A stretch of DNA of 29,033 nucleotides from a virus: positions 1-29,033 of the IMG/VR virus record IMGVR_UViG_3300037133_000019; one strand, given 5' to 3'. The notes beneath the pieces were generated by a model. That model had not been told where the DNA came from. It ran no database searches and was given only the letters and a program-made list of their open reading frames with translations. The position numbers and the translations under genes are program-made. This document shows positions 2,786 to 17,648 of this stretch, in pieces (positions within the stretch are counted from its first letter, which is position 1; each line of letters opens with the position of its first letter).

Positions 2786-2958
2786 TATTCACCTTTCTTG
2801 ATCCATTTCACATCCGGAAAAATAATCCCATGCGCCAATAAATGTCCAAGCAAATCAACTGCTACATTCTGCCAAAAATTCTCATCTTTTGGAAAAGTCC
2901 AATTAGTACTTAATGTTTTTACTCCATCAATATCTGTATCAGGAATCTCATATATCAT
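2785..2958 (-). CDS. 57-residue hypothetical protein following the exonuclease gene
   Basis: An ATG at 2958 overlaps the stop of the exonuclease gene as ATGA, with GAGGGG upstream. The protein opens MIYEIPDTDIDGVKTLSTNW, has a middle like FWQNVAVDLLGHLLAHGIIF and ends DVKWIKKGE. No family is recognised. The start/stop overlaps at both ends and the good ribosome site make it very likely to be translated. Confidence 0.72.
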   Translation of the reverse strand: MIYEIPDTDIDGVKTLSTNWTFPKDENFWQNVAVDLLGHLLAHGIIFPDVKWIKKGE

Positions 2959-4091
2959 TCCAATCCCCTCGCTTTCATTTCCTCTAGTTGTGCATAATAA
3001 ATCTCAAGCGTTACCATAACGTCCTTGCAATTGTAAATCTTCATAGCATCCATGTTCTTTATACTCCAACCCGCGCCCTCGTCTTTCCAGTATATCTCAC
3101 GGGTGTATTGTCGGGCTAGAAATTGAAGTTTATGTGGAAGTTCAGGCCATAGTTGATGGTGCTGAATCATTGTGTCGCGACATTTTTCGAGTGGGAGCCT
3201 AAATCCCAGCATCTCGTAGAAGTTCGCATCGAAATTGAAGAAATTCTGCCCGAGTGATGGAACTTCCCAGAGTAACTTTGCTAATTTCTTCCAAAGCTCC
3301 CGCGTTTCTACCGTAGACTCACGAAAGAAATCAAAACTAATACCAAAGTCAGTCCGAGGAGCTAGACCAATTGTAATTGGATACCCTGGGAGGATTTTAT
3401 AGAACTGAGATGGCTGCGTCTTTGTCGGCGCGCGTGGATAGATTGTCTCAATGTCGTTTGAGATAATCGGGTAGTTGAAAAAAGTATCCAGAATAGCAAG
3501 CAATTCGTCAAAGCATTCGAAGTGAATTTTTGGCTCGCGTTTAGGCAATGGCTGCATTGTCTTTGCGTGTGTTTTCCAATACTCCAGCTCACTGGCCGCT
3601 TTCGCGAGATCGCAGCTTATGACCACATCGCGAAGTTTCCATTGCTTTACAATATCAATCGGCTCGAATGTTGGAACTACATAATGCTCCCAATCATTCG
3701 GCCCGCTCACATTTGTTTGTTTTAATTTAAGTAACGATCCACAATACTTGGATATTTCAGAATCTCGCTCGGGGTTATATTTAGGGCCACGATACTTTGG
3801 TTCTAGTTCATGGCATACCTTAGCTCCTGCGACGCCTAGTGGAATTATTATAGCGGGTTTACGACTCTTCAGATAACAATGCCAATCACCACCTGTTGGT
3901 TTTCCTAAGACTGGCTGGCAACAAGTTACGTAATAATCAGGCAACCCGGCTTCTCGCATCATCTTATCAAAAACATACCCCATAGGGGAACTGAATAAAT
4001 AGCCTTTATCTTCGTCTCCGGGGAGTGGCTTATTAATCAGTACCCATACAGGGCTAGAAGGGTTTCCATTATTCGCTATATGCTTATCCAA
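2955..4091 (-). CDS. UDG-like domain plus 3'-5' exonuclease (N-terminal half of a split DNA polymerase)
   Basis: This protein probably carries the proofreading activity for the separate polymerase protein at 1-1512. Residues 1 to about 120 resemble the uracil-DNA-glycosylase-fold domain fused to many phage family A polymerases (GYLFSSPMGYVFDKMMREAG near 30-49, then IIIPLGVAGAK near 81-91); glycosylase activity is uncertain. Residues about 200-378 form a DnaQ-type exonuclease: Exo I D213/E215 (NDIET), Exo II with N283 and D288 (NFFNFD), Exo III Y353/D357 (YNCKD). The start is TTG at 4091 behind GAGG, because an in-frame stop lies just upstream and no ATG is available. The protein ends right after the exonuclease domain, where fused homologues continue into the thumb. 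Confidence 0.9.
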   Translation of the reverse strand: MDKHIANNGNPSSPVWVLINKPLPGDEDKGYLFSSPMGYVFDKMMREAGLPDYYVTCCQPVLGKPTGGDWHCYLKSRKPAIIIPLGVAGAKVCHELEPKYRGPKYNPERDSEISKYCGSLLKLKQTNVSGPNDWEHYVVPTFEPIDIVKQWKLRDVVISCDLAKAASELEYWKTHAKTMQPLPKREPKIHFECFDELLAILDTFFNYPIISNDIETIYPRAPTKTQPSQFYKILPGYPITIGLAPRTDFGISFDFFRESTVETRELWKKLAKLLWEVPSLGQNFFNFDANFYEMLGFRLPLEKCRDTMIQHHQLWPELPHKLQFLARQYTREIYWKDEGAGWSIKNMDAMKIYNCKDVMVTLEIYYAQLEEMKARGLE

Positions 4092-4392: not shown

Positions 4393-4424
4393 GAAAAAGT
4401 TGGGCGGCTATGAAAGCCCGCCCA
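4393..4424 (-). terminator. Rho-independent terminator candidate
   Basis: TGGGCGG (4401-4407) pairs with CCGCCCA (4418-4424). Read on the minus strand, the stem is followed by ACTTTTTC, the T-run of an intrinsic terminator. It lies just below the structured-RNA candidate, after the DUF669-like gene, so it may end or attenuate that transcript before the polymerase genes. Confidence 0.7.
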
Positions 4425-4428
4425 CTTA

Positions 4429-4525
4429 TTATAGTAAATGCGACTCTTGTCGTCCGTATCTAACGCTCGTGGGCCACTGACGGTTCACCACTTATGTGGA
4501 ATCATCCTTTCGGAATTTACTATAA
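4429..4525 (-). ncRNA. Candidate structured RNA (multi-branch junction)
   Basis: An 11-bp stem closes the element: 4429-4439 (TTATAGTAAAT) with 4515-4525. Read on the minus strand, the inside contains TCC-GAAA-GGA (a GNRA tetraloop hairpin, 4505-4514), CCAC-ATAA-GTGG (4488-4499), a CCGT/ACGG stem (4454-4457 with 4480-4483) and CGAC-AAGA-GTCG (4441-4452). Four internal stems inside a long closing stem within 97 nt are more than chance folding usually gives. It starts within two bases of the stop codon of the DUF669-like gene and is followed by a terminator. I checked the hammerhead, pistol, hatchet, twister and twister-sister consensus sequences from memory and found no match. The function is unknown. 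Confidence 0.55.
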
Positions 4526-4526
4526 A

Positions 4527-5027
4527 TTATTTGCGCTTCAGCAAATCCACGATATGACGAATCTTCGGGAACTTGCTCGCACAATCCGCGACCGCACAAA
4601 TATACCGCTCAACCTTATTCGAGTCCTTACCGTTGTAATTATCCACAGCGATAATAACCTTACCTGAACGTCCAAGTAGCGGGCCAGCATACTTCCATGT
4701 GTTAGGATCATCGGCCTTATACTTAGCATTATCTCCATCCCATGAGCCCGGAATCCAACTCTCCTTACCATCCGTTTCCATCGGCAAGCCGAAGCAATGC
4801 ACAAAATCAGGCCATGTCCAAGCTCCGCCGGAGTTCAAAGTATCAAATACCCTGCGCCCGGCAAACTCAGGATGTCCAACAATCTCCATGCCCGGATTCA
4901 GATTGAATGAATCTCCCTTTTTTGATACCTTGACATTGAATCCAACTAGCTTAATATTATACGGGCCGGGGGGAACTACATCCAAACCTTCGAGCTTGTC
5001 GTTACTTACCTTCATTGAAAAAGCCAT
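4527..5027 (-). CDS. DUF669-like phage recombination or ssDNA-binding associated protein
   Basis: A 166-residue protein (MAFSMKVSNDKLEG..., PPGPYNIKLVGFNVKVSKKG, EIVGHPEFAGRRVFDTLN, GRSGKVIIAVDNYNGK). The layout of a PPG-Y-x-hydrophobic start, a central beta-rich body and a C-terminal KV-N-V block resembles the DUF669 family, which is commonly encoded next to a RecA-like ATPase and an exonuclease in phages and is often proposed to bind single-stranded DNA. Here it follows exactly such an ATPase, with a tRNA gene between them. AGGATATAACA precedes the ATG. The biochemical role is inferred from context. Confidence 0.75.
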   Translation of the reverse strand: MAFSMKVSNDKLEGLDVVPPGPYNIKLVGFNVKVSKKGDSFNLNPGMEIVGHPEFAGRRVFDTLNSGGAWTWPDFVHCFGLPMETDGKESWIPGSWDGDNAKYKADDPNTWKYAGPLLGRSGKVIIAVDNYNGKDSNKVERYICAVADCASKFPKIRHIVDLLKRK

Positions 5028-5099: not shown

Positions 5100-5176
5100 T
5101 GGTGCTCCTGCCCGGACTCGAACCGAGAGCCGACAAATTATGAGTTTGTTGCTCTTACCAATTGAGCTACAGGAGC
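5100..5176 (-). tRNA. tRNA with anticodon CAT (elongator Met, or Ile if modified)
   Basis: The cloverleaf is complete on the minus strand: acceptor GCTCCTG/CAGGAGC, D stem GCTC/GAGC, anticodon stem ACAAA/TTTGT around loop CTCATAA (anticodon at 5140-5142), T loop TTCGAGT in a five-pair stem, discriminator A and an encoded CCA (5100-5102). The anticodon stem lacks the GGG/CCC of initiator tRNA, so it is elongator Met or a lysidine-modified Ile tRNA. It lies between the ATPase and DUF669-like genes on the same strand and must be processed out of their transcript or separately transcribed. Confidence 0.95.
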
Positions 5177-5211: not shown

Positions 5212-5994
5212 TCACAGGAGTGCTTTCTTATGCTTCGTGATCATATTCGCGAGATTCGCAGGTTCCTGAGCATCTAATCGCATCGACGTAGATGCCATGA
5301 AGTCACCGCTAGGATGAACAGTAACGATCCTATTGCCGGAGTAATCAATACTGATACGAAATACGTCATTAAAAAGGCTAAGCAAACTAGAAAGATACTG
5401 AGGCTGAACAGTTTTCCTGCCAGTGTATGCTTTTTGTTCCTTCGTCGAGGATTGCGCATCTTTTTCATCCATTTCGTGAAAGATTGCAATCACATTACCA
5501 AGCTCGGATAGTCGTCCAATCAAGTATTCCATATACGCGCGATTGCCGTTGATAATATCATAGTGCGATGGGATTTTAACTATCGTCGTTCCCATCTTTA
5601 CCGTGCGGCTCATACTTGGATGCTGCTTGATAAGCTCATGCTCGCAAGCAACACGCAAATACGTCATAGAATCCAGAATAAACCACTCCGGCGTGGGCTT
5701 TCCCTGCTGCTTCAGATATTCAAACATACTAATATCAGTTTCAAAATCACTAATAGCGTGCGGTTGCGCAGGATTCAACTCCTTGTATGTCTTAGCATCT
5801 ATATCTGTGCGTTTGGTTTTTGATATAAAAGATCGTATACTCTCCGAACGATCATCGAAATCTGCCTCAAAGATTGTTCCCGGCGCTGTCATAGCGAACC
5901 AACTTTTACCTGCTTTTGGCTCACCTACGACAGCGATCTTAAACTTAGGCTCCGACTCCAAATCGACAAGCCCTTGGATATTTTCGTATGGCAT
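5212..5994 (-). CDS. RecA-like AAA ATPase (phage AAA_24 type)
   Basis: A 260-residue ATPase with Walker A GEPKAGKS (residues 24-31), a Walker B-like WFILDS (D108) and an AAA_24-style body with LGNVIAIFHEMDEKD near the middle. Phage proteins of this type are usually linked to recombination or replication, next to a DUF669 protein and a RecB/Cas4-like nuclease; all three are present here. It starts at ATG 5994 behind GAGGGAAATAA, 11 bases after the preceding small gene. The substrate is inferred to be single-stranded DNA or a recombination intermediate. Confidence 0.88.
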   Translation of the reverse strand: MPYENIQGLVDLESEPKFKIAVVGEPKAGKSWFAMTAPGTIFEADFDDRSESIRSFISKTKRTDIDAKTYKELNPAQPHAISDFETDISMFEYLKQQGKPTPEWFILDSMTYLRVACEHELIKQHPSMSRTVKMGTTIVKIPSHYDIINGNRAYMEYLIGRLSELGNVIAIFHEMDEKDAQSSTKEQKAYTGRKTVQPQYLSSLLSLFNDVFRISIDYSGNRIVTVHPSGDFMASTSMRLDAQEPANLANMITKHKKALL

Positions 5995-13107: not shown

Positions 13108-13206
13108 TTGTATTATTCTCCTGCGGGGATTGCCCGCGTTTCTATTATGATGCTATTGCGTGCTACGCAATGTATTTAGCTACTATACATTGACGACGGC
13201 GCGCGT

Positions 13207-13252
13207 ATGTGCGATCTAGATGATATTGTCGCACATCGCGCGCTGTAGTCAA
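13207..13252 (-). promoter_or_regulatory. Promoter with overlapping dyad operator, proximal copy
   Basis: On the minus strand TTGACT (13247-13252), a 16-base spacer and GACAAT (13225-13230) form a promoter. The dyad ATGTGCGA (13207-13214), 14 bases, TCGCACAT (13229-13236) overlaps the -10 box. The distal copy at 13296-13341 has the same layout. Confidence 0.68.
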
Positions 13253-13295
13253 GATACCTTTAGCATAATATAAATTATCCTATGGAAAGCTCGGG

Positions 13296-15846: not shown

Positions 15847-16408
15847 AATCGAATCATCATCATACGCCATGTCTGTCTCTAGGTCATGGGCATAGGGGGG
15901 TATAGACACATCTGTCTACGACGACCTCGCGCACGCTGTGCTAATCTCGCTCCGCATAGTTTTCGTTCGTTCTATAGTATTCGTTCTCTTTATATATTAT
16001 AAAAATATTTTTTTTTTATAATAAGAACAGGACTATAAACTATAGACTCAAATATAATTACGCGGCGCGAAATATGCACAGAATTAGGAATAGCACGAAA
16101 TAGCACACTCGACCTATGCGCACCCATCGACACCCCCCCCGCCTCATGACCTAGAGACAAAGGGGGTGTATGTCGTTGATTCTAATCCCTTTATCCGCGA
16201 ACTCGGATGGCTATCCATCGTGAATGTCGGTCCTGTGCTACGCGGATACGCGGATACGCGCGCGCTTGCGCGCTTGCGCTCGCACAAATTCGTTTCAGAT
16301 TAGTGTCGGGGCACACGAACGCGCTTGCGCGCAGCTCTGCTGCGTACGCTGTTGTGCCAGCGTTCGCATTCAGAGCTGCGCATAGCGCGCAGTGATATGG
16401 ATTAGATT
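15847..16408. other. Non-coding hub with nested dyads; candidate replication origin
   Basis: No convincing gene lies here. TGTCTCTAGGTCATG at 15874-15888 recurs inverted at 16145-16159, each followed inward by a G-run. Inside are TCTATAGT/ACTATAGA (15971-15978, 16039-16046), GTTCT/AGAAC (15983-15987, 16024-16028) and ATTATAAAAA/TTTTTATAAT (15996-16005, 16013-16022). All are centred between about 16005 and 16017 on an AT-rich core with a T-run. TAGACA-CATC-TGTCTA (15903-15918) is a further dyad. Iterated symmetrical sites around an easily melted core are typical of phage origins, but a regulatory hub is also possible. From 16230 to 16400 the DNA is GC-rich with GCGC-type repeats. Confidence 0.5.
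16329..16381. repeat. Long hairpin below the early-gene operon
   Basis: GCGCAGCTCTG (16329-16339) pairs with 16371-16381. Inside, TGCG/CGCA and ACGCTG/CAGCGT continue the stem to a TTGTGC loop, giving 21 pairs with small bulges. On the minus strand it lies 28 bases after the stop at 16409. There is no T-run; it may be a factor-dependent terminator or an mRNA end structure. Confidence 0.62.
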
Positions 16409-16576
16409 TTATGCTCTCGCGCTGCGAGCCACGGCACGCGCTTCACGCTCTGCTCGCGCGCGTAGATACCATGCTACAGCGTAGTGCGCGAACTTCTTAT
16501 CCTCTGCGAGATATAAGTGCACCCGCGCCTCATGCCGCAATTCTTCCGCGTTTTTCCATCGTTCGATTATGCACAT
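16409..16576 (-). CDS. 55-residue Ala/Arg-rich helical protein
   Basis: An ATG at 16576 lies nine bases after GGGAGG, three bases below the preceding stop. The protein opens MCIIERWKNAEELRHEARVH and ends in an Arg/Ala-rich helix (RARAEREARAVARSARA). No family is recognised. The strong ribosome site and spacing support it as the last gene of the 17301-16409 operon. Confidence 0.68.
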   Translation of the reverse strand: MCIIERWKNAEELRHEARVHLYLAEDKKFAHYAVAWYLRARAEREARAVARSARA

Positions 16577-16966: not shown

Positions 16967-17035
16967 GTTGTAACCCCCATCCCGCGCATATCCACGGCCA
17001 AACAGCATGGGCTGTGCGCGGTAGCAGGCTACAAC
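16967..17035 (-). promoter_or_regulatory. Inverted repeat that may shield a ribosome site
   Basis: GTTGTAACC (16967-16975) and GGCTACAAC (17027-17035) pair with one mismatch across the gap between two minus-strand genes. On the transcript the second arm ends one base before the ATG at 16965, next to its G-rich ribosome site, so folding could limit translation. Confidence 0.42.
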
Positions 17036-17301
17036 TCTGTGAGAACATCGCGCGATTCTTGTGCTGCCTGCTTGAGATACGCATCCTTGCTGATGTCCCA
17101 CTTCGCGCCGCGCCTGCTCGAATTGTCGTATATCTCCGCGTTGACCTTAGTCTCCGCCACACGATGCCGTTTGAAGTCGCCCTTCACTCTCGCGTTGAAT
17201 GTTGACTGTGCAAGCGCGGTCTGCGCGTCTTCGTCCTTCCCCATCATATACAGCGCGGATTCCTGTGCATCTGATACTGTAACTGTGAGTGTAATAGCCA
17301 T
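17029..17301 (-). CDS. 90-residue hypothetical protein, first leftward gene
   Basis: Opens MAITLTVTVSDAQESALYMM and contains a basic region (ARVKGDFKRHRVAETKV) and a charged helical end (YLKQAAQESRDVLTEL). The opening resembles small early phage proteins that start with a short beta strand, but no family is certain. GAGGGG precedes the ATG. Its transcript would carry the hairpin-rich leader at 17345-17494. Confidence 0.68.
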   Translation of the reverse strand: MAITLTVTVSDAQESALYMMGKDEDAQTALAQSTFNARVKGDFKRHRVAETKVNAEIYDNSSRRGAKWDISKDAYLKQAAQESRDVLTEL

Positions 17302-17344
17302 GATATATACCCCTCGCCATACGGCGTCTTTCTACGTTGCTTGT

Positions 17345-17393
17345 ATAGCAGCAACCTACAACCTAGCATGACTAGGTTCTAGGCTGCTGCTAT
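17345..17393. repeat. Near-perfect 20-bp hairpin
   Basis: ATAGCAGCA (17345-17353) pairs with TGCTGCTAT (17385-17393). The stem continues inward with CCTA/TAGG and AACCTAG/CTAGGTT, with two single mismatches, to a CATGA loop. It lies in the leader of the leftward transcript, 44 bases from the first ATG, and could act in attenuation or RNA protection. Confidence 0.7.
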
Positions 17394-17426
17394 GCAGCCT
17401 TATAAGGATTGTCGCCTTATACCGGC

Positions 17427-17494
17427 GTGGCGTGCTGTATGCTATCTTTTATGCAGGACTCATCCATGCACTCGCCTTACATACAGCACGCCAC
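17427..17494. repeat. Perfect 15-bp inverted repeat with 38-base spacer
   Basis: GTGGCGTGCTGTATG (17427-17441) is perfectly inverted at 17480-17494. The spacer contains a small TGCA repeat. It is either a leader hairpin of the leftward transcript or a protein-binding or recombination site. Confidence 0.72.
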
Positions 17495-17571
17495 TATTTT
17501 AGTTTACCAGCGCGTACTGCGCGTGCTCCCTGTAGAGTCAATTAGCGGGTATGCCCGCAGAACCATTATAC

Positions 17572-17631
17572 CGCGCGTGTCAATCATCCGCACAACTATT
17601 ATCTACAACTATAGTTGTATTGACACGCGCG
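17572..17631. repeat. Inverted repeat carrying a TTGACA in each arm
   Basis: CGCGCGTGTCAAT (17572-17584) is perfectly inverted at 17619-17631, and ACAACTAT/ATAGTTGT (17592-17599, 17611-17618) extends the stem. ACAACTATAGTTGT (17605-17618) is itself a palindrome. Each arm contains a TTGACA facing away from the centre, so a protein bound here could control transcription both ways. Confidence 0.68.
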
Positions 17632-17648
17632 CGCTCCTGTGCTATAGC
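17620..17648 (+). promoter_or_regulatory. Rightward promoter candidate
   Basis: TTGACA (17620-17625), a 17-base spacer and TATAGC (17643-17648). The -35 box lies in the right arm of the inverted repeat. It would give a leader of about 310 bases before the first rightward gene. Confidence 0.55.

Follow-up and report, generated by a model that had tools for sequence, protein, structure and literature searches.

The DNA analyzed here is a 29,033-nt stretch of a viral record (IMGVR_UViG_3300037133_000019), referred to below as the window. On its minus strand, a Sak4-like ATPase gene is followed by a tRNA-Met and by a DUF669-like gene, whose stop codon leads into a 97-nt element predicted to be a structured RNA. 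Next come a terminator, a gene for a 41-aa acidic protein and an exonuclease gene. From right to left, the features are:

5212-5994, minus strand: gene for a Sak4-like ATPase (PHROG 124, Pfam AAA_24)
5100-5176: tRNA-Met, the only tRNA called (ARAGORN, Rfam)
4527-5027, minus strand: SSB/DUF669-like gene (sub-threshold Pfam DUF669), the upstream transcript partner of the element; stop codon 4527-4529
4429-4525, minus strand: predicted structured RNA element, 97 nt (closing stem P1 and four enclosed hairpins), single copy in its own record
4515-4525, minus strand: P1 closing stem, 5' strand UUAUAGUAAAU, perfect 11-bp complement of 4429-4439
4505-4514, minus strand: P2 hairpin UCC-GAAA-GGA with a GNRA tetraloop, flush with P1 (RNAfold; 1 of 400 interior shuffles)
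4488-4499, minus strand: P3 hairpin CCAC-AUAA-GUGG (RNAfold; pair probability 0.95)
4454-4483, minus strand: P4 stem CCGU/ACGG (interrupted) with a weak inner stem P4a (RNAfold; the least certain helix, 0.57-0.80)
4441-4452, minus strand: P5 hairpin CGAC-AAGA-GUCG (RNAfold; pair probability 0.92-0.93)
4429-4439, minus strand: P1 closing stem, 3' strand AUUUACUAUAA, pairing with 4515-4525
4394-4426, minus strand: intrinsic terminator, a GC-rich hairpin followed by U5, kept in the sister phage L101/L102
4249-4374, minus strand: gene for the 41-aa acidic protein, directly after the terminator and preceded by a Shine-Dalgarno sequence; similar acidic ORFs occur in relatives
2955-4091, minus strand: gene for a DNA-polymerase-type exonuclease, downstream of the acidic protein gene

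The SSB-like protein matches Pfam DUF669 below threshold, and the same holds for five of six relatives. In HK620, a DUF669 protein encoded next to sak4 serves as SSB of the phage (PMC5928155), and on this precedent the protein from the window is called SSB. In the exonuclease (2955-4091) and its relatives, a conserved N-terminal part (GNPxSPVWV...KGYLFS) precedes the exonuclease and resembles, by eye, a uracil-DNA-glycosylase-like domain. Further left, separate ORFs seem to encode other pieces of the polymerase.

The surrounding genes all run leftward, and the RNA is therefore assigned to the minus strand. The original prediction had described an 11-bp closing stem (4429-4439/4515-4525) around four hairpins or stems, one of them GNRA-looped, below a stop codon and above a terminator. 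This description holds: P1 pairs perfectly, RNAfold returns P2 to P5 with GAAA as the loop of P2, the stop codon adjoins the element, and the GC-rich hairpin with its U5 tail follows. P1 itself was rejected as an intrinsic terminator. Its stem is AU-rich and is followed by UAAGUGGG, which is not a U run; the real terminator is the hairpin at 4394-4426. A tRNA-like reading was also rejected, ARAGORN and Rfam calling only the tRNA-Met at 5100-5176 and the element having no T-loop. An attC-like recombination site, considered by eye, was dropped because the element has just one core box.

In RNAfold, the element has a minimum free energy of -25.1 kcal/mol (z-score against shuffles -2.59; 2 of 200 shuffles fold equally well). 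Together, element and terminator reach a z-score of -3.87. Helix probabilities are 0.77-0.95 for the element alone and 0.76-0.95 within 400 nt of context. When 75 nt of upstream sequence and the terminator are included, the values are 0.69 for P1 and 0.59 for P4 (range for P1, P4 and P4a: 0.57-0.69). The opposite (plus) strand folds slightly better (-28.9), which is frequent for multi-stem structures composed of inverted repeats. After correction for GC content, the fold energy is unremarkable, as 469 of 4824 97-nt windows from the whole phage are as low (about the lowest tenth). When P1 is fixed and the interior shuffled, the observed energy is reached in 112 of 400 cases, and a GNRA hairpin flush with P1 is obtained in 1 of 400. 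A perfect 11-bp closing stem in such a short spacer arose in 6 of 20,000 Markov simulations. P1 is the sole inverted repeat of its kind in the 29 kb; 0.6 are expected by chance, so that its position counts for more than its presence. The energy is thus only moderately unusual, but the stem in this spacer and the flush GNRA hairpin are improbable, and the case is one of anatomy and position, not of stability.

The element had been proposed to be undescribed, with no known ribozyme or riboswitch consensus that fits, and the searches bear this out. Among the 4227 Rfam families, there was no match at the gathering threshold and none that is believable at E-values up to 5. The three matches returned are at chance level, far below their thresholds. 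The Rfam models for hammerhead, HDV-like, pistol, hatchet, twister-sister and RAGATH RNAs do not match the element, and the Rfam twister models, for which conserved UAAUGC and GGUCC-type elements are required, have no match in the window at the gathering threshold and none in the element at E-values up to 5. Homologues were found neither by blastn in 50,697 phage records and 72,556 plasmids nor with exact core words in viral contigs (chance matches or none). Exact-word scans find near relatives only, so that distant homologues of the window RNA may exist. A covariance model of the single sequence, run on 53 loci and 17 related phage records, found only itself, and the Sak4 and SSB proteins retrieved no cultured relatives from the phage collection. 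Since no homologue was found, the fold of the window RNA is predicted from a single sequence. It is a new RNA candidate outside every described class, and its function is one that we infer.

The corresponding loci of relatives, which form an uncultured clade, were gathered by scans with SSB, exonuclease and Sak4 alignments. Altogether, 52 distinct post-SSB spacers (that of the window included) were compared, and one further spacer (L211) was read. The site contains a terminator only, a type-P5 twister, or one of several unrelated structured RNAs. Across the relatives, it is an operon or transcript boundary with changing content, a general statement that draws on predicted folds and on two covarying families, one of which has two sequences only. 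In the closest sister (L101/L102), the SSB is 95% identical, and after the stop codon a 56-aa ORF precedes the same terminator. The window RNA was searched for across the sister record and was not found there; the terminator alone aligns. In L105, L106, L108 and L109, the SSB gene is followed by a terminator and nothing more. A scan of a genome collection yielded a single contig, from a Sulfuriferula MAG, with only a terminator-type hairpin at its site. The spacers of L135, L137 and L111 are structured and lack the combination of closing stem and GNRA hairpin. By eye, the L103 spacer folds like a tRNA (T-arm GCAGGUUCAAGUCCUGU), but neither ARAGORN nor Rfam calls one. In L129, L132, L136 and L131, the terminator is preceded by a short hairpin whose loop region they share (GUAGAUUCGGCCCUGC or GCAGAUUUUGGCCCUGC) and whose outer stem varies; it may be a further small RNA element of the post-SSB site.

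Two kinds of RNA at this site show covariation and thereby lend the window RNA good support of an indirect kind. Their positions are:

L182, 4322-4380: type-P5 twister directly after the SSB stop codon (Rfam)
L177, 4565-4623: type-P5 twister directly after the SSB stop codon (Rfam)
L110, 2979-3083: unnamed post-SSB RNA, 105 nt, not in Rfam, with covarying P1 and P2
L124, 1926-2030: the same unnamed RNA, 105 nt

The type-P5 twister (RF02684) of L182 scores 54.4 bits, above the Rfam threshold, and the post-SSB match in L177 is below it. With L169, L177, L181 and L182 as its basis, a twister model recovers L159 as well. Only L182 passes the Rfam threshold, so that the other twisters of the clade would escape routine annotation. 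The twister stems covary: pairing is kept in 60 of 60 cells, with both-side changes at six pairs, whereas slid controls pair in about 40% or less. The clade twister model (R2) matches five relatives, not the window. No description of a ribozyme association with the Sak4-SSB locus was found in the literature searched, which was covered in part. The twisters (RF02684; L182, L177, L181, L169, L159) resemble the window RNA in being compact structured RNAs on the coding strand, directly after the SSB gene. They are, however, about 60 nt long, whereas the window RNA has 97 nt and lacks the twister core and pseudoknot sequences. The window RNA has a separate terminator, whereas the twister loci show none.

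The RNA shared by L110 and L124 has an invariant core (GUUAAUACUGGUAUAAGCG; 19 nt identical between the two), which a search of viral contigs returned from these two records only. When the two sequences are aligned in a register set by hand, seven P1/P2 pairs are changed on both sides with pairing kept. It resembles the window RNA in its position, its similar length (105 nt) and the closing stem followed by a GNRA hairpin; in both, the last small hairpin adjoins P1. There is no sequence similarity to the window, while the core is conserved between L110 and L124. Moreover, a U run follows the closing stem of the L110/L124 RNA itself, whereas P1 of the window has none.

A closing stem with a GNRA hairpin within 0-5 nt, in a length of 86-105 nt, is found in four lineages (the window, L103, L110/L124 and L188). 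Interior shuffles give a closing stem with an adjacent GNRA hairpin in 2 of 2000 cases; natural structured RNAs favour GNRA loops, so that the shuffle null overstates the surprise of the shared layout. A descriptor (at least 8 Watson-Crick pairs in P1, a GNRA hairpin next to it, a length of 78-125 nt) was scanned over about 300 kb of loci and the window. Four of its seven matches begin 5-13 nt past an SSB stop codon (window, L110, L124, L188), and two Markov-simulated copies of each locus gave eight matches in all. The total is thus not above chance, but the clustering at the post-SSB site is non-chance; the descriptor was framed after the cases had been seen and provides support, not an independent test. 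The architecture of the clade (86-105 nt in length, a closing stem that begins 5-13 nt past the SSB stop codon and a GNRA hairpin no more than 5 nt from it) is also that of the window RNA, the class being defined in this analysis, partly post hoc, by likeness of layout and not by common descent. The RNAs of the window, L103, L110/L124 and L188 might be fast-diverging members of one undescribed class of P1-closed phage RNAs of about 100 nt with a GNRA-capped P2, possibly a new self-cleaving ribozyme that replaces the twister at the boundary of the Sak4-SSB operon, but we regard this as doubtful.

The window RNA may well act in cis, as a structured RNA in which the Sak4-SSB mRNA ends, and protection or insulation of the 3' end seems its most likely role. 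Among the functions first suggested (a stable small RNA, an mRNA end structure, a target for a phage protein), the mRNA end structure fits best, as the element is framed on the coding strand by the stop codon and the terminator; a protein target is possible. RNA polymerase would run leftward through sak4 and ssb and transcribe the 97 nt past the stop codon. The RNA would then adopt a multi-branch fold that P1 closes and whose first hairpin carries the GNRA cap, with the terminator immediately after it. To judge from its position, the element would mark and protect the point where the recombination mRNA gives way to the polymerase genes downstream; it might shield the mRNA 3' end from exonucleases and hold the terminator hairpin apart from upstream sequence. 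Besides the position, this reading is favoured by the improbable closing stem in the spacer, the rare flush GNRA hairpin, the clade-wide transcript boundary and the recurrence of the layout of stem and GNRA hairpin. The sister phage counts against it, as it manages without the element, with a 56-aa ORF and the same terminator; so do the failure of the searches to find a homologue and the unexceptional fold energy. The common denominator of the site is a transcript boundary between recombination and replication genes. In some phages, this boundary is formed by a terminator, in others by presumed self-cleavage, in which the twister would cut the transcript there, and in the window by a structured RNA before the terminator. 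The window RNA shares with intrinsic terminators and 3'-end protecting hairpins a stem structure at the mRNA 3' end. It differs from intrinsic terminators in being multi-branched and in having no U run after it, the next hairpin being the true terminator.

Alternatively, the element could cleave itself and so cut the transcript between ssb and the genes further down, as twister would, and be a ribozyme that is either new or extremely divergent. We consider this unlikely, even though relatives carry twisters at the identical site and the compact multi-branched fold is ribozyme-sized. The L110/L124 RNA at the same site also points in this direction, as an invariant core with covarying stems is typical of catalytic or ligand-binding RNAs. 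However, no Rfam ribozyme matches, the twister model misses the window, a single sequence defines no conserved core, and a terminator already follows the element. Self-cleavage of the window RNA is thus possible, but unsupported by its sequence. RAGATH motifs are motifs of RNAs near ribozyme-associated genes, and the search for them reportedly yielded pistol, hatchet and twister-sister. The same logic applies to the window RNA, an unexplained structured RNA beside genes with twister-bearing relatives, although it matches none of the corresponding Rfam models (RAGATH, pistol, hatchet, twister-sister). Searches in the neighbourhood of genes that accompany known ribozymes have turned up newer ones (PMC6154101). 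For phage hammerheads, a role has been proposed in which they divide long transcripts into mRNAs the length of an operon or a gene (PMC3088659). Those flanking phage genes share the operon-boundary position in phage transcripts with the window RNA, which has, however, neither a hammerhead core nor an Rfam hammerhead match. As terminators, twisters and undescribed structured RNAs swap at one fixed genomic position, the candidates can be directly tested and compared for cleavage, and the site could show why phages put ribozymes between genes.

It is improbable that the element is set free from the 3' end of the mRNA as a stable small RNA with targets in trans, be they of the host or of the phage. 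The 3'-UTR position, the terminator of its own and the compact fold would suit such an RNA, as would the cassette-like presence and the absence from the closest sister, which are features of accessory functions. On the other hand, no promoter-like site is listed near the element on its strand, and the sequence is mostly paired, with short loops. That the fold is a product of chance, an inverted repeat and short hairpins in a functionless spacer, also has a low probability. Chance is in keeping with the absence from the sister, the ordinary interior energy (112 of 400 shuffles), a GC-corrected energy merely in the lowest tenth of the window and the expectation of 0.6 such inverted repeats. Against it stand the simulations for this spacer (6 of 20,000), an element that is flush with stop codon and terminator, the demonstrably covarying RNAs at the same site in relatives, and the recurrence of the layout of P1 and GNRA hairpin.

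An attenuator is very unlikely; in such a model, the P4 loop would pair through its GCCCAC with GUGGGC in the terminator arm, open the terminator in one state and thereby control the downstream genes. Prefix folding lets the alternative fold win at intermediate transcript lengths, and the gene order would be that of aptamer, terminator and gene; at full length, however, the alternative is 8.8 kcal/mol worse. Equal pairing occurs in 397 of 3000 shuffles (13%) and in 72 of 319 real windows (23%). The pairing is thus no better than in shuffles, and an attenuator is not claimed. Mobile DNA, a small miniature inverted-repeat element with P1 as its ends, is extremely improbable: the perfect terminal inverted repeat and the presence in one phage but not in its sister would fit, but the element is single-copy in its own record, phage records and plasmids yielded no copy, nor did viral contigs searched by exact words, and its ends coincide with stop codon and terminator.

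Other regions of the window are also structured. A 258-nt leader (17303-17560, minus strand; MFE -115.7, z-score -7.4), which folds far more strongly than the 97-nt element, lies between a conserved TATAAT-like sequence and the first leftward ORF (17029-17301). The phage record L108 has a partial homologue of this leader (75% identity), in which one long hairpin is kept with changed sequence. Just upstream of the leader (17570-17640, minus strand), a 13-bp inverted repeat (CGCGCGUGUCAAU/AUUGACACGCGCG) surrounds a second palindrome and could be an operator or promoter element. Long GC-rich intergenic hairpins at 13153-13285 (plus strand) and 16301-16409 (minus strand) are among the strongest folds of the window.
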